Program-made: the position numbers and the translations under genes | The notes under the pieces: model-generated | What the model saw: only the letters and a program-made list of their open reading frames with translations | What the model was told of the DNA's origin: nothing | The model's database searches: none | Part shown: piece after piece, positions 2,003 to 61,820 of the stretch | Position numbering within the stretch: the stretch's first letter is position 1 | Layout: each line of letters opens with the position of its first letter | DNA from: Xestospongia bergquistia | Taxonomy: Eukaryota; Porifera; Demospongiae; Haplosclerida; Petrosiidae | Length of the DNA: 64,000 nt | Direction of reading: 5' to 3' | Assembly (NCBI GenBank): GCA_963965975.1 | Contig: OZ014414.1 | Span: 9,171,230-9,235,229 of the forward strand

Positions 2003-5000
2003 TTACCAGAACACAAGTCTGTCTTTAATAACTTGATAACTGTCTAACTTCATACAATACTCTTTATGTTGTCTTGATAAGTATAGTTTCCTTATTGTAG
2101 TATTTTTATTAAATGATGTACATATTGTCTTGATATCATCATTGTTTAGTGAAGTATAGTCAAGATCTAGTTCTGTCAATGATGTAGTTGTTTGTATTAG
2201 ATCTGCTATTGTATTGGTACTAACTGAAGTGATCTGATGATTACCTCCGATGTTCAACATAGTCAGTGTTTGGTTTTTAGTAAGTCCTTCACAGATATAT
2301 CGGACTCCATTATCAGTGATGTTACAGTAGGAGAGATCTAGTTCTTTTAAAGTTGTATTACTTGATAACATAGTAGATAAGTGAGTTATATCTTCATCTG
2401 TGATATCAGTAACATCAGACAACACTAACTGTTCAAGTGTTTTATTATTAAAGAGACTATCACTGACTTGTTTGATACCACCAGTAAGTGAAGAGGAGTA
2501 CAGATCTAGTATCTTTATTGTTTTATTAGTTTTTAGTATCTCTGATAATATCGATACACACTTACTGTCCAATGAAGTGTACCATATATTAAGTCTCCTC
2601 ACTGTACACTTATTAAGATTGTTTATAATAACTGCAGTACTTTCAGGAGATGATGAGGAGAGATGAATACTCCATTCTTTTCCTGTTTGTTGTTCTTTTA
2701 TTAATTTACTTATAACATCTTCACTTTGTAATATACTTGGACTAGTGAGCCATACACTATTGTCATCATCATTCCACTGAACACTTCCAGTGTCTCCTGT
2801 TATAAAACAGAGTTAGTATATAGTATAGTACACACATAGTAATATATACTATAACACACTACAATACACAGACAATACACTGAAGAAGAAAGGAAGCCAT
2901 TACTGTTTACTGATTACGATTACTGTAGCAACGAATTATAGGAGGCGTGGTTTACTGTTAAATTTGAGTATGTTCTACTATAGACAAAAAATCCTATCAT
3001 ACTAACAGAACACTACTATATAATGGACTTCTGGTATATCAACTTAGTCTGGCGAAGCTAATCCCTTTGCTTTGAGAGGAATTATCTGGTATCCTATGTC
3101 TCATGTCTGACAAATTTTTATAGTTGAGTGTGACTAAAAACTGCTTTGATCTAATACAGGATCTGTAAATGAGTTATTCTTTAGACATTTCCTGTTTGAA
3201 TATGAAGTGTTTGTCCTTTCTTAAGTCAGTGATAAAATATAAAAGCTAGCTCATGTTTAATGGAGTCCTGGAGTCTAATACAAGGATTTATCTAACCTGG
3301 GATTAATGTAAAGAGTTACACTGAGTTCACCTACTCAAATTTTAATACAATAGTACAGTTTAATCTACGGATTTAGTTGCTCTGTATTTTCTTTGTACTG
3401 GATTTTCAGGTGTTAAAACATAAACTAGTTGGTGTTGCTTACCTTGTTTAAATGTATGTAAGGAAAAGATTTGATAAAAGAGTTTTGAGCATGTCTGGAA
3501 AGTCCCATCAATGTAGATTGTATAATGTAATTAGGTAAGTATTAAAACTCTTTGTACATTTTATAACAATTATCAATGAAAATTTTTAAAATTTCTATTA
3601 ATTAGGATTATGGTATCTGTAGGCAAAACCGTACTATTGTATTAAAATTTGAGTAGACAAACTAAGCAAAACTCCTAATCCTATGATTGAACAATGGATG
3701 TGATTTAGGAATTATTATCAGATTGTTCTGTAATAATGAAGACTGAAGATTTATTAGTTAATTTAATTCATTGTTTTACAGTATTCTGACAATTCCAGTG
3801 TATGCCTGATATCTTTAAAATTAACAGTTAATTATCATTCATTTTGTGGTTTGAGATATGAATATAATTAATAGACATCACTGATAATCATTATCAGTAA
3901 TAACAGTGCAGTGATGAACAAAATCACATTAAAATACTTTAGATGATCACTTTACTATTAAAATAGTACTACTACTGAGCACTAGTGATTATCACTATAA
4001 ACCAGTTATTATTGTGATATAAGTGACCCAACCTTTTCAAGTATATCATCACATGTGGTTTAAGTTGTTAAAATATTGTACAATACTTATCATATACTCT
4101 ACATATGATAAGTATTGTATATCATATAATACTAATATTGAAGAACATTAACTTAATATATACTAAGTTATAATTATAATATAACCTACTTGGATGAGGT
4201 AAGGAACTCTCATCTTTATCATCAGCTGAATCCTTTAACTGATCTGTTAACTCTAATATAAATGAATGCTCTATATCAATAGTTATATCATTTCTATTAC
4301 TACCTGTAGTTTCACTGATAAATGGTGTGGGTTCTTGTTGACTAGACTTTGTAGGGGTTCCCTCTTGTTCTTGATCAGTTACTGGTTTATGAGCCTTTGA
4401 TATGAATGCTAGATCTAGTAACAATGTCATATAATGAGAAGTGACTAATATCAGTTACCTTTTAAGTTCTGCCTTAATGCCTCAAACTGTTTGTTTCTCT
4501 CTCTTAATCGTAACATCAATGATGCTGTCACTTCCTGTAGTGTCTCCAACTCTTTTTGTCTCTCTGCAGACACTGACAGTAACTCTTCCTTAATAACTAA
4601 ATAATTATTAATTATAATTATGTATTGATAAATCAGTAACACAGACTATGTTAGTGATAGCTATTGTATTAATAATACCTTCCTTCCATTTCAAATGTGA
4701 TGTCAAATCTTTGATTGTTTTTTCTTTCATTTGTTTTCTTTCTACATAGAAACATTGAATTTTAAATCAGATATATCATATAATAGACAGCTATTAAATA
4801 AACAGTGATTATTGACTACATGGACAAATACCTTCACTTTGTTGGACAACAGATGATATTTGTAAAGTCATCTTTTTACTGATGGTTTGTCGTAGTTCAA
4901 GTTGACTTCTTAAATCCTTTGTATTCTCTTCTACAATAGGTCTAACCTCCTACATATCAATAAACAACACATGTAGTAACTGTTGTCTAATACTATTCAT

Positions 5001-6452
5001 CTCTTACCTTGTCTCTTTGACGTTTGTCATAAATAGTGTTGTAGCTGAGAGTGAGTTTTATTAATCCCACCTCTTTTAATACATCAAGATTCTCTTCTGC
5101 TGTTACTAGTAGAATATCCATCATATAATGTGGTGCATAGCAGGTCACAATGATAGAGTTGCCTTTCTTTATAGCTCTAACTTGGACTGACTTTGCCATG
5201 TCTTTGAATGCCTTTGATAGGAGGCCTTCAATATGACTGAGGGTGCGTTCATTTATCTTCCACTCTACAACAAACTCAATAGTCTCACATATTAGGTGAT
5301 GAGATGTTGAATCTATTGCAAAGGTCTGGTCAATACATATGTCAGCTTTAATTTTTTTGCAGAATTCATCAACAGCTGTCTTGAAATCTATGATGTGTTG
5401 TTTAGCCTCAGTGATCTTGTAGTGATTAACAATGGCCTCCAGACAACAAACATTAATGATAGTACATGAATGTTGAACAACATCTATGACATCATCAAAT
5501 GATTCAGCATTAACCAGTTGAGGTTCTAGTTCTTCAAAACATCTTCGTAGATATCTTTTGAGCTCTTTTAATGAAGGAATACCAGCTTCAATGAGTGGTG
5601 ATATAGTCTCAATAAGATCTCCAAAAGTCACTCTCATTTGATCAAATTCATATTGATATGTTGGTTGTAGATTGACTCGAGGACGACAAGTCTGGTCTAT
5701 TTGAATACATAATAAAATAATAAATTGAAGAAACTTACTCACCATATTCCTTGAGTATATCTTGACCAATTAATACTGTTTGTTCAGACTTCATTAAGAC
5801 ACTAGCGAAGATTTTTAATTTGCCAGGATCTTCAGACACTGTAGTATGTAGTGCTCTCAATGGACCATCTCCTAGTACACCTCCTAATCTATTGACTTCA
5901 TCTAATGTCTCCTTAGAGATCACTCTCTCTGTATATAACATCTGAACAATCTCCACAGGAAGAGTAAGTGGTAAGATTCTATCAGAGTGTTTGTGTAGCA
6001 TTTGACAAGATGGAGTAGATAACTCATCTGTTAAAATGTAAAGAGACAATGTATTACAAAACTTAAGATCACTAGTTCTTACTAAATTCCTTTATTTGTT
6101 CAGCAGCGAAAACTTCTTCTATTGCCTTGAGAGCGTCAGCTAATGAGTTCCATGTAGGACTTCCACTTTCAGTCACCTTGTCAGCTTTACTCAACCACAG
6201 AGTTAAACATTCCTGAAGACAGCTCTCTGGATCATCTCGGTACTTGGTTCTAATGCTTGATAGAGTAGGTTGTAATAGACCCAGTTGTAGACCAAGAGGA
6301 GACCAACGATGGCTTGGGAAATAGCCTTGTTTCAAAGCTTTAATGATATCTTTCAAATTACTAACATCTATAATAACAATATAATAGAGAGAAACAACTT
6401 AAAGTGAATACAATCAAGTTAACTCACTCAGTTCACTTTGATTTGCTGTCAT
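2003..6452 (-). CDS. Receptor gene A: Death / CARD-like / unassigned module / coiled coil / LRR protein (873 aa)
   Basis: Exons (transcript order): 6428-6452, 6083-6367, 5743-6027, 5008-5696, 4832-4949, 4679-4741, 4459-4596, 4190-4414, 2003-2796; total 2622 nt, in frame. Residues ~10-103 form a Death domain (RWSPLGLQLGLL, then CLQECLTLWL). Residues ~104-198 are CARD-like (EIVQMLYTERVISKETLDEV). Residues ~199-428 are a module I cannot assign, containing NSIIVTCYAP. Residues ~428-535 are charged coiled coil, followed by a Ser/Thr-rich linker. Residues ~609-873 are ribonuclease-inhibitor-type LRRs. No P-loop GxxxxGK[ST] was seen, so this is not a classical NLR. No signal peptide or membrane segment, so probably cytosolic. 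Start chosen at the short exon shared with C and D. An innate-immune sensing role is inferred from family architecture. Confidence 0.85.
3889..3907. repeat. Short palindrome in the gene A intron
   Basis: The ACTGATAAT/ATTATCAGT palindrome is also present in the equivalent introns of C and, with one change, D. It shows that the 1.4 kb intron between linker and LRR exons was copied as a block. Confidence 0.6.
4079..4119. repeat. Conserved 17-bp-arm hairpin in the intron before the LRR exon (gene A)
   Basis: Arms TACAATACTTATCATAT and its exact reverse complement flank a 7-nt loop. The same hairpin occurs in gene C near 16148-16188 and gene D near 25819-25859, about 70 bp from the splice donor of the linker exon each time. 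Gene B, which lost this intron segment, lacks it. Confidence 0.8.
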
Positions 6453-7650: not shown

Positions 7651-7699
7651 GACATAAATCTGGTCCTATAATGGTCCATTATAGGACCAGATTTATGTC
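7651..7699. repeat. Perfect inverted repeat (second copy)
   Basis: Identical to the 49-bp palindrome at 343-391, with 24-bp arms. No substitutions separate the two copies. Confidence 0.85.
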
Positions 7700-10700: not shown

Positions 10701-13481
10701 TTACCAAAACTGAAGTCTGTCTTTAATAACTTGATAACTGTCTAACTTCTTACAATACTCTTCATGTTGTCTTGATAAGCGTAGTTCCCTTATTGTAGTA
10801 TTTTTAAGTGATGTACATATTGTCTTGATATCATTATTGTTCAGTGAAGTATTGTAGAGATATAGTTCTGTCAGTGACGTAGTTGTTTGTATTAGATCTG
10901 CTATTGTACTGGTACTAACTAAAGTGATCTGACGATTATGTCCGATGTTCAAAGAAATCAACGTTTGGTTTTTAGTAAGTCCTTCACAGATATATCGGAC
11001 TCCATTATCAGTGATGTTACAGTAGGGAAGACTTAGTTTTTTTAAAGTTGTATTACTTGATAACATAGTAGATAAGTGAGTTATATCTTCATCTGTGATA
11101 TCAGTAACATTATATAACACAAACTCTTCAAGTGTTTTATTATTAAAGAGACTATCACTGACTTGTTTGATGCCACTAGTAAGTGAAGAGGACACCAGCT
11201 CTAGTATCTTTATTGTTTTATTAGTTTTTAGTATCTCTGATAATATTGATACACACTTACTGTCCAATGAAATGTCCACTATATCAAGTCTCCTCACTGT
11301 ACACTTGTTAAGATTGTTTATAATAACTGCAGTACTTTCAGGAGATGATGAGATGAGACGAATACTCCATTTTTTTCCTGTTTGTTGTTCTTTTATTAAT
11401 TTACTTATAACATCTTCACTTTGTAATACACTTGGTCTAGTTAGTTCAACAATATTGATATCATTATACCACTCAACACTTCCAGTGTCTCCTATTATAA
11501 AACAGAGTTAGTATATAGTATAGTACACACATAGTAATATATACTATAACACACTACAATACACAGACAATACACTGAAGAGAAAGGAAGCCATTACTGT
11601 TTACTAACTACGGTTACTATTGCAACAAATTCCAGGATGCGTGGTTTAATGTTAAATTTGAGGTTGAGGAACAATTCTATTATACTAACAGAACACTACT
11701 ATATAATGGATTTCTGGTATTCATATATCAACTTAGTCTGGTGAGGCCAACCTAGTTGCTTTTTTAGAGAAATTGTCAGGTAGCCTATTAATCTTGTACC
11801 TGACAAACCACGTTGTTTTTATAGTTGAGTGTGACTATAAACTGCTTTATCTATTTATTAATTTGCAAATGAAGGATCTGCAAATGAAGATATTTCCTCT
11901 TTGAATATGGCCTGTTCATCCTGTTCTCATTGTATTTAAGTCAGTGATAAAATATAAAAGCTAGCTCATGTTTAATGGAGTCCTGGAGTCTAATACAAGG
12001 ATTTATCTAACCTGGGATTAATGTAAAGAGTTACACTGAGTTCACCTACTCAAATTTTAATACAATAGTACAGTTTAATCTACGGATTTAGTTGCTCAGT
12101 ATTTTCTTTGTACTGGATTTGCAGGTGTTAAAACATAAACTAGTGGGTGTTGCTTACCTTGTTTAAATGTATGTAATTAGAAAGATTTGATAAAAGAATT
12201 TTGAGCATGTCTGGAAAGTCCCATCAATGTAGATTGGATAATGTAATTAGGTAAGTATTAAAACTCTTTGTACATTTTATAACAATTATCGATGAAAATT
12301 TTTAAAATTTCTATTAATTAGGATTATGGTATCCGTAGACAAAACGGTACTATTGTATTAAAATTTGAGTAGACAAACTCAGCAAAACTCCTAATTCTAT
12401 GATTGAACAATGGATGTGATTTAGGAATTATTATAAGATTGTTCTGCAATAATGAAGACTGAAGATTTATTAATTAGATGAGACTAGAATACATAATATT
12501 TCTATAGCTATAGGTAGATAACAACAAAATTACTTTTAGTTAGATCAGTTAATACTATACTAAAGATACTATACATTGTGGATGTGGTTAAAGTGATGCC
12601 TCAATCATGGTCAAAATTATCTTCCAATCTCAGATATCTCAATACATATTAATACACACAATTTCTATAGTATTATGTGATATATAATAGACAATGTATT
12701 GTGTTACTACCTGTAGTTTCAGTGATAAGTGATGTCTCTTTCTGAGTGGACTGTGTTTGAGTCTCCTCAAGTCCTTGATCAGTTACTGGTTTACGAACCT
12801 TTGATATTAATGCTAGATCTAGTAACAATGTCATATAATGAGAAGTCACTAATATCAGTTACCTTTTACGTTCTGCCTTAATGCCTCAAACTGTTTGTTT
12901 CTCTCTCTTAATTGTAACATCAATGATGTTATCACTTCCTGTAGTGTCTCTAACTCTTTTTGTCTCTCTGTAGACACTGACAGTAACTCTTCCTTAATAA
13001 CTAAATAATTATTAATTATAATTATGTATTGATAAATCAGTAACACAGACTATGTTAGTGATAGCTATTGTATCAATAATACCTTCCTTCCATTTCAAAA
13101 GTGATGTCAAATCTTTGATTCTTTTTTCTTTCATTTGTTTTCTTTCTACATAGAAACATTGAATTTTAAATCAGATATATCATATAATAGACAGCTATTA
13201 ATAAATAAACAGTGATTATTGACTACATGGACAAATACCTTCACTTTGTTGGACAACAGATGATATTTGTAGAGACATCTTTTTACTGATGGTTTGTCGT
13301 AGTTCAAGTTGACTTCTCGATTCCTTTGTATTCTCTTCTACAATAGGTCTAACCTCCTATATATCAATAAACAACACATGTAGTAACTGTTGTCTAATAC
13401 TACTCATCTCTTACCTTGTCTCTTTGACGTTTGTCATAAATAATGTGGTAGCTGAGAGTGAGTTTTATTAATCCCATCTTG
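10701..13481 (-). pseudogene. Receptor gene B: 5'-truncated copy retaining coiled coil and LRR
   Basis: The LRR exon 10701-11491 is fully open. Exons matching gene A exons 5-8 are present (near 13253-13370, 13082-13144, 12863-13000 and ~12711-12814). The last of these stops at ETTG, where a GTAGT donor could splice in phase to the LRR exon. At about 13481, inside the exon for the unassigned module, sequence changes to BDH2 intron. Death, CARD-like and most of the unassigned module are absent, and no start codon or promoter of its own is evident. An LRR-only transcript is possible but unproven. Its LRR strand residues differ from the other copies. Confidence 0.8.
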
Positions 13482-13709
<228 letters not shown>

Positions 13710-14071
13710 GTCATCTGATACTATTGACAATCTAGCTAACACTGATTTATTAATTTGTATTTTGTGGAATGTTTTCTTAATAATTATTATAAATGATGTT
13801 CGTCATTTCTTGGAATCTCATCAGAGGGTTAAAATTTAGGCCACACCTAAAATTTAGGCAATTCAGGCGCTAAGCTGAGCAGCTGTCAGAGAGCAAAAAA
13901 GTGCGATGTTAGAGAAAGTAAGTGTCAAGCAAAACTGCTCTATTTTTATTGTCTACTAGTTTTGTTAGAGAAATAAATTGTTAATGAAAGATGAGAAAAT
14001 GAAGTTAAAAAAAATTTAAAGAGAAAATATAAGTGAGCGAGAAGACAAATTAAGAATAAACAACAAACTAC
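13710..14071. other. Intergenic: receptor gene C 3' flank
   Basis: Non-coding. Shares with the other receptor copies the block from GGCCACACC through AGCAAAACTGCTC and TTGTCTACTAGTTTTG. No additional gene seen. Confidence 0.6.
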
Positions 14072-17000
14072 TTAGAACATGGAGAATTTAAGTCTGTCTT
14101 TAATAACTTGATAACTGTCTAACTTCTTACAATACTCTTTATGTTGTCTTGATAAGTATAGTTTCCTTATTGTAGTATTTTTTTTAAGTGATGTACATAT
14201 TGTCTTGATATCATCATTGTTTAGTGAAGTATAGTCAAGATCTAGTCTTGTCAATGATGTAGTTGTTTGAATTAGATCTGCTATTGTATTGGTACTAACT
14301 GAAGTGATCTGATGATTACCTCCGATGTTCAACTTAGTCAATGTTTGGTTTTTAGTAAGTCCTTCACAGATATATCGGACTCCATTATCAGTGATGTTAC
14401 AGTTGTAGAGATCTACTTCTTTTAAAGTTGTATTACTTGATAACATAGTAGATAAGTGAGTTATATCTTCATCTGTGATACCAGTAATATAAGACAACCA
14501 TAACTGTTCAAGTCTTTTATTATTAAAGAGACTATCACTGACTTGTTTGATACCACCAGTAAGTGAAGAGGACTGCAGCTCTAGTATCTTTATTGTTTTA
14601 TTAGTTTTTAGTATCTCTGATAATATCGATACACACTTACTGTCCAATGAAGTGTTGTATATATAAAGATACCACACTGTACACTTATTAAGATTGTTTA
14701 TAATAACTGCAGTACTTTCAGGAGATGATGAGTTGAGACGAATATTCCATTCTTTTCCTGTTTGTTGTTCTTTTATTAATTTACTTATAACATCTTCACT
14801 TTGTAATACACTTGGACTGTAGAGTCTAACACTATTGTCATCATCATTCCACTGAACTCTTCCAGTGTCTCCTGTTATAAAACAGAGTTAGTATATAATA
14901 TAGTACACACATAGTAATATATACTATAACACACTACAATACACAGACAATACACTGAAGAAGAAAGGAAGCCATTACTGTTTACTGACTATGGTTACTA
15001 TGGTAACGAATTGCAGGAGGCGTGGTTTACTGTTAAATTTGTTGCTATAGACGAAAAATCCTATCATACTAACAGAACACTACTATATAATGGACTTCTG
15101 GTATATCAGCTTAATCTGGGAAAGCTAACCCCTTTGCTTTGAGAGGAATTATCTGGTAGCCTATGATCTCATGTCTGACAAATTATTTTATAGTTGAGTG
15201 TGACTAAAAACTGCTTTGATCTAATACAGGATCTGCAAATGAATTTTTCTTTAGACATTTCCTGTTTGAATATGAAATGTTTGTCCTTTCTTAAGTCATT
15301 GATAAATATAAAAGCTAGCTCATGTTTAATGGAGTTCTGGAGTCTAATACAAGGATTTATCTAACCTGGGATTAATGTAAAGAGTTACACTGAGTTCACC
15401 TACTCAAATTTTAATACAATAGTACAGTTTAACCTACGGATTTAGTTGCTCTGTATTTTCTTTGTACTGGATTTGCAGGTGTTAAAACATAAACTAGTGG
15501 GTGTTGATTACCTTGTTTAAATGTATGTAAGGAAAAGATTTGATAAAAGAATTTTGAGCATGTCTGGAAAGTCCCATCAATGTAGATTGGATAATAAAAT
15601 TAGGTAAGTATTAAAACTCTTTGTACATTTTATAACAATTATCAATGAAAATTTTTAAAATTTCTATTAATTAGGATTATGGTATCCGTAGACAAAACCG
15701 TACTATTGTATTAAAATTTGAGTAGACAAACTCATCAAAACTCCTAATCCTATGATTGAACAATGGATGTGATTTAGGAATTATTATAAGATTGTTCTGT
15801 AATAATGAAGACTGAAGATTTATTAGTTAATTTAATTCATTGTTTTACAGTATTCTGACAATTCCAGTGTATGCCTGACATCTTTAAAATTAACAGTTAA
15901 TTATCATTCATTTTGTGGTTTGTGATATGAATATAATTAATAGACATCACTGATAATCATTATCAGTAATAACAGTGCAGTGATGAACAAAATCACATTA
16001 AAATACTTTAGATGATCACTTTACTATTAAAATAGTACTACTACTGAGCACTAGTGATTATCACTATAAACCAGTTATTATTGTGATATAAGTGACCCAA
16101 CCTTTTCAAGTATATCATCACATGTGGTTTAAGTTGTTAAAATATTGTACAATACTTATCATATACTCTACATATGATAAGTATTGTATATCATATAATA
16201 CTAATATTGAATACTAAGTTATAATTATAATATAACCTACTTGGATAAGGTAAGGAACTCTCATCTTTATCATCAGCTGAATCCTTTAACTGATCTGTTA
16301 ACTCTGATATAAATGAAGGCTCTATATCAATAGTTATATCATTTCTATTACTACCTGTAGTTTCACTGATAAATGGTGTGGGTTCTTGTTGACTAGACTT
16401 TGTAGGGGTTCCCTCTTGTTCTTGATCAGTTACTGGTTTACGAGCCTTTGGTCTGAATGCTAGATCTACTAACAATATTATATAATGAGACGTCACTAAT
16501 ATCAGTTACCTTTTAAGTTCTGCCTTAATGCCTCAAACTGTTTGTTTCTCTCTCTTAATCGTAACATCAATGATGCCGTCACTTCCTGTAGTATCTCCAA
16601 CTCTTTTTGTCTCTCTGTAGACACTGACAGTAACTCTTCCTTAATAACTAAATAATTATTAATTATAATTATGTATTGATAAATCAGTAACACAGACTAT
16701 GTTAGTGATAGCTATTGTATTAATAATACCTTCCTTCCATTTCAAAAGTGATGTCAAATCTTTGATTGTTTTTTCTTTCATTTCATTTCTTTCTACATAG
16801 AAACATTGAATTTTAAATCAGATATATCATATAATAGACAGCTATTAAATGAACAGTGATTATTGACTACATGGACAAATACCTTCACTTTTTTGGATAA
16901 CAGATGATATTTGTAAAGTCATCTTTTTACTGATGGTTTGTCGTAGTTCAAGTTGACTTCTTAACTCCTTTGTATTCTCTTCTACAATAGGTCTAATCTC

Positions 17001-18506
17001 CTATATATCAATAAACAACACATGTAGTAACTGTTGTCTAATACTACTCATCTCTTACCTTGTCTATTTGACATTTGTCATAAATAGTGTGGTAGCCTAT
17101 TGTTACCCTGATCACACCCAACTGCTTCAACGAATCAAGATTTTCCTTTGCTGTCATCAACAAAAGGTCAATTAAACTTTGTGGAGCATAGCAGGTAACA
17201 GTGATGGAGTTTCCTTCATTTACTGCTTTAACTTGTACTGACTTTGCCATATCTTTGAATGCTTTTGACAACAATCCTCTTATGTCAATAAGAGTGTATT
17301 TGTCAGCTTCCCACTCCAGAACGAACACAATAGTCTCACGGGTAAGTTGATGAGAAGATGAAGAGATCGTGAAGCTTTGATTACAGCATACATCAGCTTT
17401 GATCTTCTCACAAAATTCATCAACTGATGTGTTGTAGTTTGTGATATGTAATTTAGCTTCAGTAATGTTAAATTGATTAACAATACCTTCCAAACAGCAA
17501 ATGTTAATAATGGTACATTTATCTTGTACAATCTCCATGACATTGTTAAAAGACTCAGCTATTTTTAACAGAGGTCTTAGCTCTCTGAAACACATCTGAA
17601 GATATGTTTTAAGGTCTTCCAGTGAAGGGATACCCTTAGCAATAAGAGGAGCAACAGTGAAAAAAAGTGTACCAAATTTCATTCTCATTTGATCAAAATC
17701 ATATTGAAAAGTGGGTTGGAGATTTATTTGGGAGGGAAAAGTTTGATCTATAAATAAAACATTATAACTTGTAGATATATATATAGTGGTACTTACCATA
17801 CTCTTTGAGTATATCTTTAGCAACAGGTACTGTTTGTTCAGATTTTAATAAGACACTTGCAAACAATTTTAGTTTGCCAGGATCTTCATACACTGTAGTA
17901 CTTAGTGCTCTTAATGGAGCATCTCCTAGTACACCTCCTAATCTATTGACTTCATCTAATGTCTCCTTAGAGATCACTCTCTCTGTATATAACATCTGAA
18001 CAATCTCCACAGGAAGAGTAAGTGGTAAGATTCTATCAGAGTGTTTCTGTAACATTTGACAAGCTGGAGTGGATAACTCATCTATTACAAGGTAAAAAGA
18101 CAATATATTATATAATGAAGATTATAAGTTCTCACTAAATTCCTTTATCTGTTCAGCAGCAAAAATTTCTTCCATTGTCTTGAGAGCGTCAGCTAATGAG
18201 TCCCATGTAGGACCTCCACTTTCAGTCACCTTGTCAGCTTTACTCAACCACAGAGTTAAACATTCCTGAAGACAGCTCTCTGGATCATCTTGGTACTTGG
18301 TTCTAATACTTGATAGAGTAGGTTGTAATAGACCCAGTTGTAGACCAAGAGGAGACCAACGATGGCTTGGGAAATAACCTTGTTTCAAAGCTTTAATGAT
18401 ATCTTTCAAATTACTAACATCTATAATAACAATGTAAAGAAATAGTAACAACTTAAAGTGAATACAATCAAGTTAACTCACTCAGTTCACTTTGATTTGC
18501 TGCCAT
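14072..18506 (-). CDS. Receptor gene C: Death / CARD-like / unassigned module / coiled coil / LRR protein (875 aa)
   Basis: Exons: 18482-18506, 18136-18420, 17797-18081, 17059-17747, 16883-17000, 16730-16792, 16510-16647, 16241-16465, 14072-14871; total 2628 nt, in frame. Same module order and intron phases as gene A; Death domain ~10-103, CARD-like ~104-198, unassigned module ~199-428, coiled coil ~428-535, LRR ~609-875. The module contains NSITVTCYAPQ and is more like that of gene D than of gene A. The CARD-like exon has two in-frame AG acceptors 18 nt apart (before DELSTP and before ACQML). LRR strand residues differ (for example LWLSYIT, VDLYNCN). Ends with an extra SMF. Intact and presumably functional. 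Confidence 0.85.
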
Positions 18507-23757: not shown

Positions 23758-26700
23758 TTACACGAACACAAGTCTGTTTTTAATAACTTGATAACTGTCT
23801 AACTTCTTACAATACTCTTCATATCTTCTTGATAAGTGTAGTTTCCTTATTGTAGTATTTTTATTAATTGATGTACATATTGTCTTGATATCATCATTGT
23901 TCAGTGAAGTATTGTAGAGATATAGTTCTGTCAATGATTTAGTTGTTTGTATTAGATCTGCTATTGTACTGGTACTAACTGAAGTGATCTGATGATTACG
24001 TCCGATGTTCAAACTAGTCAATGTTTGGTTTTTAGTCAGTCCTTCACAGATATATCGGACTCCATTATCAGTGATGTTACAGTTGGAGAGATATAGTTCT
24101 TTTAAAGTTGTATTACTTGATAACATAGTAGATAAGTGAGTTATATCTTCATCTGTGATACCAGTAACATCAGACAACCATAACTTCTCAAGTGTTTTAT
24201 TATTAAAGAGACTATCACTGACTTGTTTGATACCACCAGTAAGTGAAGAGGATGACAGCTCTAGTATCTTTATTGTTTTATTAGTTTTTAGTATCTCTGA
24301 TAATATCAATACACACTTACTGTCCAATGAAGTGTACCTTATATAAAGAATCGACACTGTACACTTATTAAGATTGTTTATAATAACTGCAGTACTTTCA
24401 GGAGATGATGAGGAGAGATAAATACTCCATTCTTTTCCTGTTTGTTGTTCTTTTATTAATTTACTTATAACATCTTCACTTTGTAATACACTTGGACTAA
24501 TAAGTATAACACTATTGTCATCATCATTCCAATGAACACTTCCAGTGTCTCCTGTTATAAAAGTGAGTTAGTATATAGTATAGTACACACATAGTAATAT
24601 ATACTATAACATACTATAATACACAGACAATACACTGAAGAAGAAAGGAAGCCATTACTGTTTACGGTATATGGCTACTATGGCAACGAACTGCAGGAGG
24701 CGTGGTTTACTGTTATCTAGTATGTTCTACTGGTAGCAATCCTATCATACTAACAGAACACTACTATATAATGGACTTCTGGTATATCAACTTAGTCTGG
24801 CGAAGCTAACCCCTTTGCTTTGAGAGGAATTATCTGGTAGCCTATGATCTCATGTCTGACAAATTATTTTTATAATTGAATGTGACTAAAAACTGCTTTG
24901 ATCTAATACAGGATCTGTAAATGAATTATTCTTTAGACATTTCCTGTTTGAATATGAAATGTTTGTCCTTTCTTAAGTCAGTGATAAAATATAAAAGCTA
25001 GCTCATGTTTAATGGAGTCCTGGAGTCTAATACAAGGATTTATCTAACCTGTAAAGAGTTACACTGAGTTCACCTACTCAAATTTTAGTACAATAGTACA
25101 GTTTAATCTACGGATTTAGTTGCTCTGTATTTTCTTTGTACTGGATTTGCAGGTGTTAAAACATAAACTAGTGGGTGTTGCTTACCTTGTTTAAATGTAT
25201 GCAAGGAAAAGATTTGATAAAAGAGTTTTGAGCATGTCTGGAAAGTCCCATCAATGTAGATTGTATAATGAAATTAGGTAAGTATTAAAACTCTTTGTAC
25301 ATTTTATAACAATTATCAATGAAAATTTTTAAAATTTCTATTAATTAGGATTATGGTATCCTTAGACAAAACCGTACTATTGTATTAAAATTTGAGTAGA
25401 CAAACTCAGCAAAACTCCTAATCCTATGATTGAACAATGGATGTGATTTAGGAATTATTATAAGATTGTTCTGTAATAATGAAGACTGAAGATTATTAGT
25501 TAATTTAATTCATTGCTTTACAGTATTCTGACAATTCCAGTGTATGCCTGACATCTTTAAAATTAACAGTTAATTATCATTCGTTTTGTGATTTGAGATA
25601 TTATATAATTAATAGACATCACTGATAATTATTATCAGTAATAACAGTGCAGTGATGAACAAATCACATTAAAATACTTTAGATGATCACTTTACTATTA
25701 AAATAGTACTACTACTGAACACTAGTGATTATCACTATAAACCAGTTATTATTGTGATATTAGTGACCCAACCTTTTCAAGTATATCATCACATGTGGTT
25801 TAAGTTGTTAAAATATTGTACAATACTTATCATATACTCTACATATGATAAGTATTGTATATCATATAATACTAATATTGAAGAACATTAACTTAATATA
25901 TACTAAGTTATAATTATAATATAACCTACTTGGATAAGGTAAGGAACTCTCATCTTTATCATCAGCTGAATCCTTTAACTGATCTGTTAACTCTGATATA
26001 AATGAAGGCTCTATATCAATAGTTATATCATTTCTATTACTACCTGTAGTTTCACTGATAAATGGTGCGAGTTCTTGTTGACTAGACTTTGTAGGGGTTC
26101 CCTCTTGTTCTAGATCAGTTACTGGTTTATGAGCGTTTGGTCTGAATGCTAGATCTAGTAACAATGTCATATAATGAGAAGTGACTAATATCAGTTACCT
26201 TTTAAGTTCTGGTTTAATGCCTCAAACTGTTTGTTTCTCTCTCTTAATCGTAACATCAATGATACTGTCACTTCCTGTAGTATCTCCAACTCTTTTTGTC
26301 TCTCTGTAGACACTGACAGTAACTCTTCCTTAATAACTAAATAATTATTAATTATAATTATGTATTGATAAATCAGTAACACAGACTATGTTAGTGATAG
26401 CTATTGTATTAATAATACCTTCCTTCCATTTCAAAAGTGATGTCAAATCTTTGATTGTTTTTTCTTTCATTTGTTTTCTTTCTATATAGAAACATTGAAT
26501 TTTAAATCAGATATATCATATAATAGACAGCTATTAAATAAACAGTGATTATTGACTACATGGACAAATACCTTCACTTTGTTGGACAACAGATGACATT
26601 TGTAAAGTCATCTTTTTACTGATGGTTTGTCGTAGTTCAAGTTGACTTCTTAACTCCTTTGTGTTCTCTTCTACAATAGGTCTAACCTCCTATATATCAA

Positions 26701-28497
26701 TAAAAACATGCAGTAACTGTTGTCTAATACTACTCATCTCTTACCTTGTCTCTTTGACATTTGTCATAAATAGTGTGGTAGCCTATTGTTAACTTGATCA
26801 CACCCAAGTGCTTCAATGAATCAAGATTTTCCTTTGCTGTCATTAACAAAAGGTCAATTAAACTTTGTGGAGCATAGCAGGTAACAATGATGGAGTTGCC
26901 TTCATTTACTGTTCTAACTTGTACTTTCTTTGCCATATCTTTGAATGCTTTTGACAGTAATCCTCTAATTTCAAAGAGAGTGTATTTGTCAGCTTCCCAT
27001 TCCAGAATGAACACAATAGTTTCACAGGTGAGATGATGAGAAGATGTAGAGATTTTGATGTTTTGATTACAACATACATCAGCTTTGATCTTTTTACAAA
27101 ATTCATCAACTAATGTGTTGTAGTTTGTGATATGTGCTTTAGCTTCAGTAATGTTAAATTGATCAACAATTTCCTCTAAGCAGCAAATGTTAATAATGGT
27201 ACATTTATCTTGTACAAGATCCATAACATCATCAAGTGATTCAGCTGTTGCTAGCTGAGGTCTTAGTTCTCGGAAACATCTACGAAGATATGTTTTAAGT
27301 TCTTGCAGTGAAGGGATTCCCTTAGCAATAAGAGGAGCAACTGTGTAAAAAAGTTTACCAAATTTCATTCTCATTTGATCAAAATCATGTTGAAAAGTGG
27401 GTTGGAGATTTATTTGGGAGGGAAACATTTGATCTATAAATAAAACATTATAACTTGTAGATATATATATATAGTGGTACTTACCATACTCTTTGAGTAT
27501 ATCTTTAGCAACAGGTACTGTTTGTTCAGATTTTAATAAGACACTTGCAAACAATTTTAATTTGCTAGGATCTTCAGACACTGTAGTATGTAGTGCTTTC
27601 AATGGACCATCTCCTAGTACACCTCCTAATCTATTGACTTCATCTAATGTCTCCTTAGAGATCACTCTCTCTGTATATAACATCTGAACAATCTCCACAG
27701 GAAGAGTAAGTGGTGAGATCCTATCAGAGTGTTTCTGTAACATTTGACAAGCTGGAGTGGATAAAAATTAAAAATAAATAATAAATATTAATATTATAAT
27801 TATATGTACTACTAACATTAATTTATACCTATATCCAGATCAAGTTTTACACGTTTTTGTTCTAATTCCATTGTTTGAACATCTTGTTTTCTCTTTCTTG
27901 AACTTGGTATGTCTATTAATTATTTAGATCTAATGAACAAATTGTTCTAATTACCTCTAGTTAAGTGTTCCACAGGAAGAGTAAGTGGTAAAATCCTATC
28001 AGAGTGTTTCTGTAACATTTGACAAGCTGGAGTAGATAAGATTTCTATAAATAAGAAAAGAAATGATTCATTAATACAATTTTAACATATTAAATCATTT
28101 ATAATACTAGAATAAAAATTTCTTACTGAAAGTCTTTAATTTTTCAGCAACAAAATTTTCTTCTGTCGTCTTGAGAGCATTGACTAGTGAGTCCAATGTA
28201 GGACCTCCACTTTCAGTCACCTTGTCAGCTTTACTCAACCACAGAGTTAAACACTCCTGAAGACAACTCTCTGGATCATCACGGTACTTGGTTCTAATGC
28301 TTAACAGAGTAGGTTGTAATATACCCAGTTGTAGACCAAGAGGAGACCAACGATGATTTGGGAAATAGCTTTGTTTCAAAGCTTTAATGATATCTTTCAA
28401 ATTACTAACATCTATAATAACAATGTAAAGAAATAGTAACAACTTAAAGTGAATACAATCAAGTTAACTCACTCAGTTCACTTTGATTTGCTGCCAT
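23758..28497 (-). CDS. Receptor gene D: Death / partial CARD / CARD-like / unassigned module / coiled coil / LRR protein (925 aa)
   Basis: Exons: 28473-28497, 28127-28411, 27955-28044, 27829-27912, 27485-27751, 26745-27433, 26572-26689, 26419-26481, 26199-26336, 25930-26154, 23758-24551; total 2778 nt, in frame. Death domain ~10-103. Two extra exons follow: a 90-nt exon giving KILSTPACQMLQKHSDRILP then LTLPVEHLTRG, whose start is CARD-like and whose tail matches the end of gene E's Death exon, and an 84-nt basic exon (SRKRKQDVQTMELEQKR), also present in E. Then CARD-like ~161-250, unassigned module ~250-480, coiled coil ~480-586, LRR ~661-925. All added exons are phase 1, so the frame survives. 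Confidence 0.85.
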
Positions 28498-44180: not shown

Positions 44181-50504
<6,324 letters not shown>

Positions 50505-50868
50505 TTAGAATATTGGAAGTATTAATAATTATTATTGATTTATTAATTATTTAATTGTGCTACTTAAATATTAATTAATTTTTATTGTAATTTCTAATTT
50601 CCTGCACATACGATCTCCAATGATGTCTGTTCTATGTACCTTTCTCAACAATTTAAAATAATATTATTTACTTATGGGAACTTATATTATAATATTGTAA
50701 ATTTATTTCAGCAAACTCTTCGTAACAAGAATAATAGTTTAAAATCATGACCGGTACGTACATACCACGTGGTCTCTGGGCCGACTGCGCGAACAAGGAA
50801 AATTAATTAACTATTTATCACAAGAAAAGGAATTTAACAGATGGTTCATCTTATTACTTAGACAAACG
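50505..50868 (+). promoter_or_regulatory. MAN1A-1 3' end and MAN1A-2 promoter
   Basis: 364 bp. The right part is less AT-rich and contains CACGTG at 50766-50771 and GACTGCGCG. No other gene seen. Confidence 0.5.
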
Positions 50869-57070
<6,202 letters not shown>

Positions 57071-57416: not shown

Positions 57417-60400
57417 ATGGAATCTCGTGAGATACAAGACTTTATAGAATTGTTTATTATTTAATTTATCTATTTCTCAGGTATTTCTCCTACTAAATAT
57501 GAACTACTCAATTTATTAGCTGATATTAATGATAAGTGGTATGAGATTGGTGGATCATTAAAGGTTTCTCAGAATCTTTTAAATGGTCTAACAAGTAGTC
57601 AGTTAAGTAATACTTACAAACTTGATCAAGTCATTGAGAACTGGTTAACTACTACTGAGTCACATCTTGTTACCTGGGAAACTGTGATCAATGCTATTAA
57701 GAGTCCTATTGTTAATAATAACAAGAAAGCTACTGAAATACATGAGTACTTAACTAGAGGTAATTAGAACATTGTGTTTATTAGATCTAATAAAATATAA
57801 ATAATTAATTAATAGAGGACATTGATATACCAAGTTTAAGAAAGAGAAAAAGAGATGTTCAAACAATGGAATTAGAACAAAAGCATGTAAAACATGATCT
57901 GAATACAGGTATAAATTAATATTAGTAGTACATATAATTATAATATTAATATTTATTATTTATTTTTAACTCTTATCCACTCCAGCTTGTCAAATGTTAC
58001 ATAAACACTCTGATAGGATTTTACCACTTACTCTTCCTGTGGAGATTGTTCAGATGTTATATACAGAGAGAGTGATCTCTAAGGAGACATTAGATGAAGT
58101 TAATAGATTGGGAGGTGTACTAGGAGATGGTCCATTGAGAGCACTACATACTACAGTGTCTGAAGATCCTAGCAAACTAAAATTGTTTGCAAGTATCTTA
58201 TTAAAATCTGAACAAACAGTATTAATTGGTCAAGATATACTCAAGGAGTTTGGTAAATAAATGTTTTATAATATTTAATATAATTACTGACTGTATTAAT
58301 AGATCAAACATTCCCTTCTCAAGTCAGTCTTCCCAGAACATATCAATATGATTTTGATCAAATGAAAGTGAGCCTTGGGAATCTCATTGAAACAGTTGAA
58401 CCACTCATTGGTAAAGCTATTCCTTCATTGAAGAAGCTCAAAAAATATCTTGGAAGATGTTTCCGAGAGTTAAAACCTCAATTACCATCAGCTGAATCAT
58501 TTGATGATGTCATGGAACTAGTAGAAGATAAATGTACCATTATTAACATCTGTTGTTTGGAGGCTATTGTTGATCACTACAATATAACAGAAGCTAAGAG
58601 ACATATCACAGAGTTCAAGACAACTGTAGATATGTTTTGTGAAAAGGTGAAAACTGACATATGTATTAACCAGGATTTCAAGGTCACTTCTTCACATCAT
58701 CTCACCTGTGAGACTATAGAGTTTGTATTGGAATGGAAAACAGATGAACATACTCTTAGTCACATTAAAGATTTGCTATCAAAAGCATTCAAAGATATGG
58801 CAAAGTCAGTCCAAGTTAGAGCTATAAAAGAAGGAAACTCTATCATTGTGACCTGCTATGCTCCACATTATATGATGGATATTTTACTTATAACAGCAGA
58901 GGAGAATGTTGACATTTTGAGAGAGATGGGAATGACAAAACTCACTCTTGGCTACTACACTATTTATGACAAACATCAAAGAGACAAGGTAAGAGATGAG
59001 TAGTATTAGACAACAGTTACTACATGTGTTGTTTATTGATATATAGGAGGTTAGAACTGTTGTAGAAGAGAATACAAAGGAGTTGAGAAGTCCTACTATA
59101 GAAGAGGAGTTGAGAAGTCAACTTGAACTACAACAAACCATCAGTAAAAAGATGACTTTACAAATATCATCTGTTGTCCAACAAAGTGAAGGTATTTGTC
59201 CATGTAGTCAATAATCACTGTTTATTTAATAGCTGTCTATTATATGATATATCTGATTTAAAATTCAATGTTTCTATGTAGAAAGAAAAGAAATGAAAGA
59301 AAAAACAATCAAAGATTTGAGATCACATTTGAAATGGAAGGAAGGTATTATTAATACAATAGCTATCACTAACATAGTCTGTGTTACTGATTTATCAATA
59401 CATAATTATAATTAATAATTATATTTAGTTATTAAGGAAAAGTTGCTGTTAGTGTCTGCAAAAAGACAAAAAGAGTTGGAGACACTACAGGAAAAGATAA
59501 TGTCATTGACATTACGATTAAGAGAAAGAGACCAACAGATTGAGAAGTTAAAACAGAGTTTGAAAGGTAACTGGTATTAGTGACTTCTCATTATATGATA
59601 TGGTTGGTTAGATCAGTTAAAAGGTTCAGCTGATAATAAAGATGAAACCACTCCTCCAAGTAAGTTTATATGATAATATTCTATCTCTTATAATCAATAA
59701 TCTTAATAATTATTAAATTTATAAGCCACAATAATTAAATTCATAATATATAAAAAATGAATTTCCATATTTACTATAGACTCCCTTAGTGTCAGTATAA
59801 TATGATAGAGTTATGATTATGATAAGATCTATAAAATGTTTATATTAAGTGTTATCATATTACACTATATACATGTACATGTTTAATATAAGTATCTTAT
59901 ATAGAGTCTCCAGTATTACATGATATATTAAAGGACTCTGATGATAATAAAGAGACAAAGGATGAAGAGTCAGACAAAAGAGGTAAGACTCAGAGAATGT
60001 TATATTAGTTTATTATAATTATAATATAATAAAATACACATACACTACAAGTATTGTTATATTTATAATGTAACTTTATTGACATGAATAGCAACTAAAT
60101 GGCTAAGTACTACATATATTGTTACTGACAAATATTAATACACTTGACTGTGTCTTAATTGACTCCACCTATAATGGACATAAGTAATAATGATGTCATT
60201 ATAACTATTCTTGTTATGAAAGAACTACCTTGTATATTATAATACCATGTATGGTCTGGTGAAGTTAGCCTTTGAGAGGAAGGATCTGGTAGCATATATT
60301 ACATTAGGAATTTAATTTTACTGTATGTGGTTAATTTTATTATATGTTAATATCATAGAGAAACATAATTAACTCAGCCCCTTTCTCTTGAGTTGGTTTA

Positions 60401-61820
60401 TAAGACTACAATATAATGTTTTTATTGTTTGTGAGACTACAATGAATATTTTTACAGAGTTAAATCAACATGACTAAATGAAAGATATTGTAATACAATA
60501 AAAGGACAAAGAAGTCAATATTTCAGAATGAAACATCTAATGATGTTTGTTTGTAGATCCTGCACTTTTAGATCAAAGCAGTTTTCAGCCACACCCACTA
60601 TAAAACAACGTGGTTTGTCAGGTACAAGTTCAATAGACTGTCGTTGTACCAAGAGTGCTAGTAAAAAGACAGCTGTACTATAGTATGGACTACCAAGCCT
60701 TTCCTCAAAGGGGCTGGCCATGCCAGATTATCCATTATTATAACTACAATAAATTCACAAATTAAAATGATGTAATATGTCAACATGACTTACTGTAGCT
60801 AGACCTTAAAACCAACTAAAAGTAAATTAATTTAAAAAGCATCTCAGTAAATTCAGGATAATAAGCCACACCTTCTATTAGCTCAATGCCATAGTAACCA
60901 TATTCAGTAAACAATAATGGCTTCCTTTCTTCTTTAGTGTGTTGTCTATGTATTGTAGTGTGTTATAGTATATATTACTATGTGTGTACTATATTATATA
61001 CTAACTCTGTTTTATAACAGGAGACACTGGAAGAGTTTGGTGGAATGATGATATCAATAGTGTTAGATTCTATTCACTAAGTGTATTACAAAGTGAAGAT
61101 GTTATAAGTAAATTAATAAAAGAACAACAAACAGGAAAAGAATGGAGTATTGATCTCTTCTCATCATCTCCTGAAAGTACTGCAGTTATTATAAACAATC
61201 TTAATAAGTGTACAGTGAGGAGACTTAACGTAGAGAACACTTCATTGGACAGTAAATGTGTATCGATATTATCAGAGATACTAAAAACTAATAAAATAAT
61301 AAAGAGACTAGAGCTATTGTCTTCTTCATTTACTGGTGGTATCAAACAAGTCAGTGATAGTCTCTTTAATAATAAAACACTTGAACAGTTATGGTTGTGG
61401 CATGTTACTGATATCACAGATGAAGATATAACTCACTTATCTACTATGTTATCAAGTAATACAACTTTAAAAGAACTATATCTCTTCAACTGTAACATCA
61501 CTGATAATGGAGTCCGATATATCTGTGAAGGACTTACTAAAAACCAAACGTTGTCTAAGTTGAACATCGGAGATAATCGTCAGATCACTTCAGTTAGTAC
61601 CAGTACAATTGCAGATCTAATACAAACAACTACATCATTGACAACACTATATCTCGACAATACTTCACTAAACAATGATGATATCAAGACAATATGTACA
61701 TCGCTTACTAAATATACCACAATAAGGAAACTATACTTATCAAGACAACATAAAGAGTATTGTGAAACGTTAGACAGTTATCAAGTTATTAAAGACAGAC
61801 TTAAATTCTTGTATTATTAA
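57417..61820 (+). CDS. Receptor gene E: alternative Death domain / CARD-like / unassigned module / coiled coil / LRR protein (868 aa)
   Basis: Exons: 57417-57426, 57481-57759, 57816-57908, 57986-58252, 58303-58988, 59047-59191, 59282-59344, 59429-59566, 59612-59659, 59905-59982, 61021-61820; total 2607 nt in frame. Residues ~4-96 are a Death domain unlike that of A, C and D (NDKWYEIGGSLKVSQNLLNG, then KLDQVIENWL and TWETVINAI). A basic linker exon (RKRKRDVQTMELEQKHVK) is shared with D. CARD-like ~127-216, unassigned module ~217-445, coiled coil ~446-560, short acidic linkers, LRR ~602-868. A 27-nt insertion in exon 6 repeats RSPTIEEEL-type sequence. Opposite orientation to A-D. The LRR strands carry LWLWHVT and LYLFNCN, different from all other copies. 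Confidence 0.85.
60252..60728. repeat. Foldback repeat in the gene E intron
   Basis: The left side (TCTGGTGAAGTTAGCCTTTG) and right side, read in reverse complement (TCTGGCATGGCCAGCCCCTT), are related inverted ends, each followed by GAGGAA and TGGTAG. Related sequence (TCTGGCGAAGCTAA, GAGAGGAATTATCTGGTA) is in the equivalent introns of A, C and D, usually only one end. Probably an old MITE present before the gene family expanded. Confidence 0.5.

Follow-up and report, generated by a model that had tools for sequence, protein, structure and literature searches.

The LRR exons and their genes

The window, meaning the whole 64,000-nucleotide stretch of Xestospongia bergquistia DNA analysed here, contains five confirmed open frames encoding leucine-rich repeats (LRRs): A at 2003-2812 (-), B at 10701-11507 (-), C at 14072-14887 (-), D at 23758-24567 (-) and E at 61005-61820 (+). 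An earlier note had quoted variable motifs from four strands of these frames, every one of which was recovered, together with three framework words described as nearly invariant, of which two are identical in all five frames and the third, SLDSKCVSILSEILKTNKTI, carries a one-residue change in D and likewise in E. The 16 nt at the 5' end of the frames are intron (TACTAAC...TTTTATAACAG), and the LRR exon therefore begins GA|GACACTGG. The exons assigned in the window are as follows.

2006..2794 (-), gene A LRR coding exon; stop codon at 2003-2005; PF13516 LRR_6, E 4.2e-11
5008..5694 (-), gene A TRADD-N-like exon; 61.6% identity to gene C; itself without a Pfam match
5744..6025 (-), gene A second helical (CARD-like) exon; found by tblastn with the gene C exon; no Pfam match
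6084..6365 (-), gene A Death domain exon; PF00531, E 3.1e-6, above the Pfam cut-off
10704..11489 (-), gene B LRR coding exon
14072..14871 (-), gene C LRR exon (last exon, stop included); spliced gene model with consistent phases
16241..16465 (-), gene C linker exon; gene model
16510..17000 (-), gene C three coil-like exons (17000-16883, 16792-16730, 16647-16510); gene model, coiled coil read by eye from the sequence
17059..17747 (-), gene C TRADD-N-like exon; NCOA6_TRADD-N, E 0.0036, below cut-off
17797..18081 (-), gene C second helical (CARD-like) exon; gene model, no Pfam match
18136..18420 (-), gene C Death domain exon; gene model, PF00531, E 9.4e-7, above cut-off
23761..24549 (-), gene D LRR coding exon
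26730..27767 (-), gene D frame, open throughout the CARD-like and TRADD-N-like exons and the short intron between them
57973..58251 (+), gene E CARD-like exon; no Pfam match
58305..58988 (+), gene E TRADD-N-like exon; no Pfam match
61023..61817 (+), gene E LRR coding exon; stop codon at 61818-61820

In the spliced model of gene C the order is thus Death domain, helical domain, TRADD-N-like domain, coil and LRR, and gene B appears to be truncated at its N-terminus. The CARD-like homologue in gene D is predicted as helices with pLDDT mostly >90. The TRADD-N-like half of the structure model is of low confidence, with weak PDB matches (best E 0.034) that include ACT, PII and S6 folds, and comparison of the N-terminal domains with PDB structures gave no match with E <0.001. 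Matches to NCOA6_TRADD-N were found in exons of genes C and D (E 0.0036-0.058, below cut-off) and none in A and E, and a Death exon was found at most 4 kb away at three of 20 wide loci (genes A, C and L046).

Location of the variation in the LRR

A survey of the same genome for further paralogues yielded 144 matching rows of the LRR exon family, A-E included, and the same strand-restricted variability in 68 intact distinct copies. The latter set consists of 71 fetched copies minus L055 (one stop) and L015 and L069 (identical to L014 and L068); of the 73 rows outside the 71 copies, 16 are interrupted by an internal stop (17 such rows occur among all 144), and 20 (L091-L110) were fetched later, 18 of them being compared. 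Linkage, frequency spectrum, base patterns and the comparison with simulation rest on a 45-copy set, comprising A-E and L003-L076 without L015, L055, L069, six copies outside C4 8.43-9.64 Mb and one member from each of three near-identical pairs, with the less similar L077-L090 omitted.

The AlphaFold model of the LRR (pLDDT 94.5) resembles ribonuclease inhibitor. The best PDB sequence match is ribonuclease inhibitor 4per (E 3.9e-27), and Foldseek ranks the axonemal LRR chain 9fqr_MA first (TM 0.80), with the ribonuclease inhibitor chains among the matches shown at TM 0.76-0.80, except 1a4y_A at 0.58; the PF13516 match and this fold together place the exon among ribonuclease inhibitor (RI)-type LRRs. 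Entropy reaches 1.5 bits or more at 29 codons, 21 of them in model strands (Fisher 1.3e-11) with an in/out alternation, and mean entropy is 1.19 bits in strands versus 0.22 in helices. As the earlier note had proposed, the variable residues are those that face outward on the strands of an RI-type LRR, to judge by their strand phase in the predicted model, and variable positions mapping to buried residues were not found, burial being judged by that phase and not by computed solvent exposure.

Beyond the four strands quoted in the note, variation is also seen in the other seven strands of the model, at codons 10-14, 19-23, 47-52, 71-77, 214-216, 242-246 and 266-267.

Comparison of codon classes likewise bears out the concentration of differences at strand positions. 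In the five window copies, the 36 strand x codons (x in xLxLxx) have pS 0.149 and pN 0.332, a ratio of 2.23 (bootstrap 95% 1.41-4.53), against 0.56 (0.34-0.93) in the remaining 225 codons. The 68 copies give pS 0.133, pN 0.347 and a ratio of 2.62 (1.93-3.73) in the a priori strand x class, 0.20 (0.10-0.42) at the strand Leu/Ile codons, and pS 0.055, pN 0.041 and a ratio of 0.74 (0.55-1.03) at all non-x codons, strand Leu/Ile included. A lack of nonsynonymous excess at the strands, looked for because it would contradict the proposal, was thus not observed. In the distant clade (L091-L099) pN/pS is 1.02 in the strict strand class and 1.60 in the wide class, the contrast with the other codons thus recurring in the wide class but not in the strict one, and nine copies of intermediate identity have strand-class ratios of 1.30 and 1.25, with 0.50 in the rest. 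A FEL-type site test, run with our own MG94-type code (kappa fixed at 1.5) on a FastTree tree whose assumptions recombination violates, placed dN>dS at 18 of 261 codons (q<0.05); 15 of the 18 belong to the 36-codon a priori class (Fisher 4e-12), 12 lie in model strands and 0 in helices. The excess of dN expected by the note is therefore present in the strand x class and not in the rest.

The homogenised cassette and linkage within it

The LRR exon sits in a bounded cassette of ~1.1 kb, together with the end of the flanking intron and the greater part of the 3' UTR, which are about equally constant.

1843..2932 (-), gene A homogenised cassette; approximate, its extent carried over from an alignment of 29 loci
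13912..15007 (-), gene C homogenised cassette; approximate, spanning the last-intron end, the LRR exon and the 3' UTR past AATAAA

Across 29 loci, mean p-distance is 0.03-0.12 within the cassette and 0.27-0.57 beyond either border. An intron block of 116 nt, scored at 40 of 142 first-look candidates, shows 97-100% identity, and the 75 nt of cassette intron ending 16 nt before the exon have a divergence of 0.033. Exon by exon, among 20 wide loci that contain one identical pair (L044/L045), the LRR exon has dS 0.041 and dN 0.072 (20/20 loci), the coil exons have dS 0.16-0.35, and the CARD-like and TRADD-N-like exons reach dS 0.62 (11/20 loci) and 0.97 (16/20 loci), both with dN/dS <0.5; gene C's frame, applied to these loci, meets stops in the TRADD-N-like exon at one (L041) and in the linker exon at 10, the linker value being left unused. 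Because the cassette's intron end and the bulk of its UTR are about as constant as the LRR exon, while the other exons diverge, the constancy of the framework reflects homogenisation of a bounded cassette. The earlier note had attributed it to purifying selection or gene conversion, and it is homogenisation, not purifying selection, that fits. Since homogenisation resets the silent clock of the framework, site-model dN/dS is not a rate of adaptive substitution; the diversifying selection that the note placed on the recognition face thus retains pN>pS confined to the strand x class, but not a reading of dN/dS as an adaptive rate. Variation at strand-surface codons is kept or created while surrounding variation is erased.

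LRR surface positions tolerate change, and under relaxed constraint the strand-surface residues would drift freely. However, strand x pN (0.347) is several-fold greater than pS at the exon's other codons (0.055) and also exceeds the divergence of the cassette intron (0.033), and neutral variation at strand codons would be erased by homogenisation as elsewhere, making free drift highly improbable.

In the 45 copies, Tajima D is -2.51 in the framework, where 118 singletons occur among 178 segregating sites, and +2.09 at strand x positions. Linkage (r2) between hypervariable sites is 0.044 at 1-8 bp and 0.022-0.028 at longer distance, with 0.023 expected; the hypervariable codons are close to linkage equilibrium. 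Most variable nucleotides have two or three alleles, not four. The longest identical hypervariable runs, the five near-identical pairs aside, barely exceed those of permuted data, and tract sharing is therefore directly visible in few cases. Silent alternatives make up 60/1809 (3.3%) at hypervariable codons and 295/15320 at other codons; Leu/Ile codons 49, 51, 102, 186, 215, 243 and 245 are identical in 45/45 copies, with up to 6/45 differing elsewhere, and rare silent variants number 0.57-0.79 per site at most two codons from variable codons versus 0.41-0.42 farther off. Old polymorphism with ordinary linkage was rejected on the little silent variation of the Leu/Ile/Val codons between variable codons, which requires that linkage break within a few bp.

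The near-identical pairs are a biased sample in that they were picked via their similarity. Two of the five have no hypervariable change, two have one, and the fifth has a single block, an all-or-little pattern in which steady codon-by-codon change is not seen; in four of them pooled, 24 differences fall in the framework (2592 nt), and 2 of the 180 hypervariable codons compared are changed. Where two copies are separated by 10-12 framework differences, the mean number of changed hypervariable codons is 25.5 of 43. In L070/L075 a patch has been replaced, with 10 of 10 codon differences falling within codons 72-106, 0 synonymous, and 699 nt of upstream flank identical; the remaining copies of the 68-copy set include no exact donor, the nearest being 3 codons off. 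In two pairs, L059/L060 and L081/L084, the exon is more alike (difference 0.5-0.6%) than the aligned flank (3.7% and 2.6%; Fisher 2e-5 and 0.003). We infer that gene conversion caused both the patch replacement and the closer similarity of these exons.

These data could also reflect a recent burst, in which one cassette spread and its copies then point-mutated their strand residues under strong positive selection that has since slowed, no shuffling being needed. Such a history would account for the star-like framework with its negative Tajima D and many singletons, the near-independence of hypervariable codons, dN>dS at strand sites, and the near-fixed silent sites between hypervariable codons, by which the variants seem younger than an old linked pool. 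It agrees poorly with the 24 framework but 2 hypervariable codon differences of the four pairs (given their biased selection), with the many common codons that lie two or three steps off their site's commonest codon, and with the rarity of silent alternatives at hypervariable codons, though they are not rarer there than elsewhere; we regard a burst as somewhat unlikely.

Diversity-generating retroelements (DGRs) act on a C-terminal variable region with a constant framework and discrete variable codons. The cassette resembles their targets in these features, and a dedicated mechanism, either DGR-like template-directed mutation or targeted hypermutation, might change strand codons during cassette copying. 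Near-random assortment per codon, the little alteration of adjoining Leu/Ile codons, the all-or-nothing differences between pairs, the fixed cassette borders and the slight surplus of rare silent variants near and inside variable codons are all consistent with this, but most variable nucleotides lack a fourth allele, silent alternatives within variable codons stay rare, and near-identical pairs show no raised hypervariable change, one block excepted, so that a mechanism of this kind is very unlikely. The adenine-specific substitution of DGRs is not seen here: adenine-directed mutagenesis was rejected, as the framework, despite being 40% A, has changed little, and an A allele at 5% or more is missing from 12 of the 72 variable nucleotides.

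Origin of the diversity and likeness to known systems

The family is probably an inherited receptor repertoire, shuffled by conversion, whose diversity is kept by selection on the binding face. Its proteins would join N-terminal death-fold adaptor domains to a C-terminal RI-type LRR of ~nine repeats, whose concave face may bind a varied ligand, most likely a microbial or viral protein; the N-terminal domains, to judge by their names, might then recruit a cell-death or inflammatory pathway. The ~1.1 kb cassette (LRR exon, intron end and polyadenylation region) would pass from one member of the family to another through ectopic gene conversion, either complete or patchwise (the one patch seen measures 105 to about 225 nt), and its framework, intron and UTR would thereby stay uniform. 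The strand-surface codons would constitute a standing pool of variants assorted almost independently by recombination, and selection for rare or new binding faces, presumably of a balancing kind, would hold many of them at intermediate frequency. Compatible with this and the other readings, the proteins may serve self/non-self recognition between individuals rather than antimicrobial defence; self/non-self recognition is mentioned for ascidians, bryozoans, cnidarians and sponges (PMC8195603). Many germline copies, extreme diversity and a death-fold domain accord with such a role, though we think it unlikely.

Conversion with balancing selection was simulated in one closed 140-copy pool with tracts of 12, 50 and 150 nt, at few settings and one run per setting. 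Association of variable sites at most 9 bp apart had a mean z of 4.4-9.0 with tracts of 50 or 150 nt and 1.5 with 12 nt, against an observed 0.86. Framework singletons numbered 5-22 among 24-93 segregating sites, against 118/186 observed, with no tract length giving the observed excess, and about 40 of 45 variable codons differed between simulated copies (31.6 in the run without selection; observed 27.6). Conversion in this closed pool was therefore rejected as a sufficient account, only the 12 nt tract having approached the observed association and rare framework variants never being matched. The failure on linkage means that the favoured explanation of a conversion-shuffled repertoire needs a far larger mixing pool, presumably the population, or very short tracts, and the rare-variant excess of the framework is beyond what conversion alone explains. 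A rare-variant framework, near equilibrium between codons 6 bp apart and few hypervariable changes in most near-identical copies constrain the generating process, and because the simple conversion model does not reproduce this combination, population sequencing would be informative.

A literature search by titles and abstract openings found no description of this LRR cassette; the 2014 papers of Yuen and co-workers, reportedly on Amphimedon NLRs, lay outside that search. In Amphimedon, an expansion of NCOA6-clade TRADD-N comprises 357 proteins, mostly with 1-3 Death-like domains followed by TRADD-N and, after it, a variable C terminus, commonly ankyrin repeats or SH3 plus LRRs (PMC8195603). 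Gene C, with its Death domain, second helical domain, TRADD-N-like domain and LRR, is similar, and both an N-terminal Death domain (PF00531, genes A and C) and a variable LRR C terminus are present here; however, the TRADD-N match is below the Pfam cut-off, no SH3 match was seen in gene C, and the TRADD-N section of that account describes no homogenised LRR cassette, strand-restricted variation or exchange (PMC8195603). The bona fide NLRs of one demosponge also combine Death or CARD with LRRs in large families, but are defined by NACHT (PMC12909245), which is absent from the Pfam matches of gene C's known exons (its 5' exon was not found) and, with 0 of the 95 matches listed genome-wide, from the LRR cluster at C4 8.43-9.64 Mb; the family is accordingly not assigned to the NACHT-LRR proteins. 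Zebrafish NLR-B30.2 genes, hundreds in number and mostly on one chromosome, share large family size, exon-specific gene conversion and positive selection in the proposed recognition module (PMC4852459), but there the variable module is B30.2, the LRRs are not particularly variable and NACHT is present, whereas here the LRR varies. Plant hvNLRs likewise carry high-entropy residues on the LRR surface (PMC8226289), which here number 29. Since hvNLR variation is among alleles across individuals (PMC8226289), and that described here is among paralogues of one genome, without NB-ARC or NACHT, this is a likeness and not membership.

An early-branching animal, a sponge, in which a heritable set of receptors varies chiefly on the presumed ligand-binding face would offer a direct test of how specificity arises without lymphocytes. 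Lamprey variable lymphocyte receptors (VLRs) arise by somatic assembly and are either secreted or bound to the cell surface. The present family resembles them in its LRR scaffold, variable concave face and conversion-like diversification (PMC3900441), but its variants are separate loci of the genome assembly, where complete exons are present, and the gene also encodes a Death domain. There is a rather small chance that the cassette, with its fixed borders and terminal exon, moves between death-domain genes by programmed germline exchange, its binding-face codons being re-drawn from a pool codon- or patchwise; if so, it would constitute an inherited counterpart, in an early-branching animal, of lamprey VLR diversification.

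Location of variation and selection in the LRR exon

The five LRR exons that the earlier note placed in genes A to E were present in the window, and a search of the sponge's own genome (146 Mb, 21 contigs) returned at least 144 matching rows, at least 127 of them without an internal stop. At least 59 of these rows lie at 8.43-9.64 Mb of contig C4, the region surrounding the window, and the remainder fall in other parts of C4 or on different contigs; along the list, identity to gene C drops from 90% to about 50%. Those retrieved, 71 of the better copies and each at least 79% identical, comprise 30 from the genome search (A, C, D and E among them), 40 more, and B from the window; subtracting one with a stop and two duplicates of other copies left 68 for analysis. 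The identical exon pairs L014/L015 and L068/L069 (L numbers denote copies of the exon in the genome) are both spaced 73,989 bp on C4, L014/L015 being identical also across 3.8 kb upstream, and represent either a recent segmental duplication or a duplicated assembly.

The exon was modelled as a ribonuclease inhibitor (RI)-type LRR (pLDDT 94.5, pTM 0.90). Foldseek ranked an axonemal LRR chain first (TM 0.80), ribonuclease inhibitor chains scored TM 0.76-0.80 with one at 0.58, and the best sequence match was ribonuclease inhibitor 4per (E 3.9e-27). Strands average 1.19 bits of residue entropy, compared with 0.22 for helices and 0.41 for the remainder; of the 29 codons at or above 1.5 bits, 21 fall in model strands and 28 lie within a strand or at most three residues past one. 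Entropy alternates along the strands (codons 101-105: 1.92, 0.11, 2.49, 0.19, 3.39), a rule that holds also for the cap hairpin and the C-terminal strand, the exceptions being codons 72-73, both variable, and 246, constant though outward by phase. Fold and placement thus agree with the claim that paralogues of an RI-type LRR differ at outward strand positions.

The LxLxx repeat pattern defined a class of 36 strand x codons, some of which, 53 and 246 for instance, are constant. Across the 68 copies pN/pS was 2.62 (1.93-3.73) in this class, which follows the repeat pattern and was set after residue counts were in view, against 0.74 at all other codons, Leu/Ile included, and 0.20 at strand Leu/Ile codons; 34 disjoint nearest pairs gave 3.16 vs 0.67. 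Our own FEL-type test found dN>dS at 18 of 261 sites (q<0.05), 15 of them inside the class, and dN<dS at 13 of 261, so that the predicted nonsynonymous excess at strand positions was recovered. In a distant clade of nine copies, 65-67% identical to gene C, the wide class showed a contrast resembling that of the main clade (x codons pN 0.237, pS 0.148; rest pN 0.041, pS 0.067), while the strict strand class in the same nine copies showed no such contrast (ratio 1.02). Nine intermediate copies (70-77% identity) gave ratios of 1.25 (wide), 1.30 (strict) and 0.50 (rest). The nine distant-clade copies are all fixed at codons 52, 75 and 77, which vary in the main clade, indicating that the variants were not simply inherited from before the split.

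Among 45 copies of the main cluster, 178 of 636 framework sites segregate, 118 as singletons, with variants mostly rare (Tajima D -2.51), and strand x sites carry common variants (Tajima D +2.09). Variable codons in these copies are nearly independent beyond 8 bp and slightly more associated within 8 bp; in the 68 copies the mean association z was 1.1 for codons sharing a strand and 0.5-0.7 for codons of different strands. The longest shared runs match permuted data, except that runs of 7-12 codons are slightly overrepresented and five near-identical pairs stand out, and differing variable codons average 25-28 of 43 across framework differences of 7 to 60 nt.

A homogenised cassette and its generating process

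Cassette borders were drawn from 29 loci, each taken with 1.5 kb flanks. Starting about 90 nt 5' of the exon and continuing to about 160 nt past the stop, mean divergence stays at 0.03-0.12; it is 0.17-0.21 at both edges and reaches 0.27-0.57 farther out, where most pairs are barely alignable. The constant part contains a branch-point-like region and an AATAAA, but a 34-nt UTR patch (L001 alignment 2369-2402), bordered on either side by an almost invariant non-coding block, varies. At the 40 places scored, out of 142 first-look candidates, identity across a 116-nt intron block was 97-100%. Three copies of the 3' block, 97-100% identical and with no adjoining LRR exon listed, lie at C2:9314450, C4:5580174 and C4:6412166; these may be cassettes that went unscored or have degenerated.

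In 20 loci with 4 kb upstream, where missing exons may be further upstream, the TRADD-N-like exon was located in 16 (dS 0.97), the CARD-like exon in 11 (dS 0.62) and the Death exon in three (dS 0.12), each with dN/dS <0.5; the LRR exon was present in all 20 (dS 0.041). At least 1500 nt are alignable upstream of the cassette in 90 of 231 pairs from 22 genes. As the cassette is alike and most upstream exons are strongly diverged, it is the LRR cassette, not the gene, that is kept alike. The earlier note had attributed framework constancy to purifying selection or gene conversion; homogenisation is upheld, since the intron end and most of the UTR are about as constant as the exon, and purifying selection is not.

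Pairs of LRR exon copies
L003-L006: flanks 3.0% and 3.2%; framework 1.4%; 26/45 variable codons differ
C-D: upstream 4.4%; framework 2.9%; 24/45 variable codons differ
L054/L063: flank 1.0%; 9 framework differences; 0/45 variable codons
L077/L080: flank 0.6%; 8 framework differences; 0/45 variable codons
L059/L060: 3 framework differences; 1/45 variable codons
L081/L084: 4 framework differences; 1/45 variable codons
L070/L075: flank identical over 699 nt; all 10 codon differences within codons 72-106

Pairs chosen by similar flanks (L003-L006 and C-D) have numbers of differing variable codons close to the averages given above, and L014/L015, the sole pair with identical flanks in the flank comparison, is identical throughout. 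The five near-identical pairs were found through similarity and therefore prove that such cases exist, not how frequent they are. The exon is less diverged than the flank in L059/L060 (Fisher 2e-5) and L081/L084 (Fisher 0.003), a pattern that copying of the cassette subsequent to gene separation would produce. One patch and these two cases of cassette copying suggest that homogenisation works through conversion.

Homogenisation accounts for the constancy of framework, intron and UTR, and selection on the binding face is required for variation at the strand codons to survive. When conversion and balancing selection were simulated together inside a single genome, local association came out stronger, and rare framework variants fewer, than in the data; silent alternatives, moreover, are slightly commoner within variable codons and close to them than in other places, and both points leave the fit incomplete. 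Among three ways in which the gap could be closed, we rank a large mixing pool first, then a recent burst, and a special mechanism third. Our preferred reading remains an inherited receptor repertoire shuffled by conversion, its binding face kept diverse by selection.

Gene anatomy and neighbouring features

Features of the window
10701-13452 (-): gene B, LRR exon intact; 12704-13452 resembles gene C coil exons
21444-22039 (-): ankyrin ORFs upstream of gene C, KRIT1-like (Ank_KRIT1 E 1.4e-12, below its cut-off)
35069-35709 (+): dehydrogenase E1 component exons (PF00676, E 4.1e-30), which we take to be probably pyruvate dehydrogenase E1 alpha
44112-44738 and 50743-51438: open frames alike by eye, each with a hydrophobic stretch; no match in a Pfam search
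49128-49499 (+): glycosyl hydrolase family 47 exon (PF01532, E 7.6e-6)

A stretch upstream of gene D matches that upstream of gene C at 96% identity over 2.9 kb, so the KRIT1-like ankyrin ORF region may belong to the duplicated unit.

Eight exons of gene C splice in consistent phase to the stop, giving about 866 residues, with the 5' exon not located. The first encodes a Death domain (PF00531, E 9.4e-7, above cut-off) and is followed by a helical domain (about 94 residues) that gave no Pfam match and by a TRADD-N-like domain, which weakly resembles NCOA6_TRADD-N (E 0.0036, below cut-off); coil-like exons and a linker then lead to the LRR exon. The gene D counterpart of the helical domain is predicted as helices, with pLDDT mostly >90, and gene A repeats the domain order of gene C (Death domain E 3.1e-6). 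Gene B is probably N-terminally truncated; before gene C ends, it has no similarity to the Death exon, the CARD-like exon or nearly all of the TRADD-N-like exon. None of the 95 NACHT matches listed for the genome falls in C4 8.43-9.64 Mb, the closest among them being at C4 8.33 Mb. We infer function, ligand and signalling from the domains alone. An expansion of Death and TRADD-N proteins is reported in the sponge Amphimedon (PMC8195603), and the architecture of gene C agrees with it in the Death domain and the C-terminal LRR, with a TRADD-N likeness below cut-off between them.
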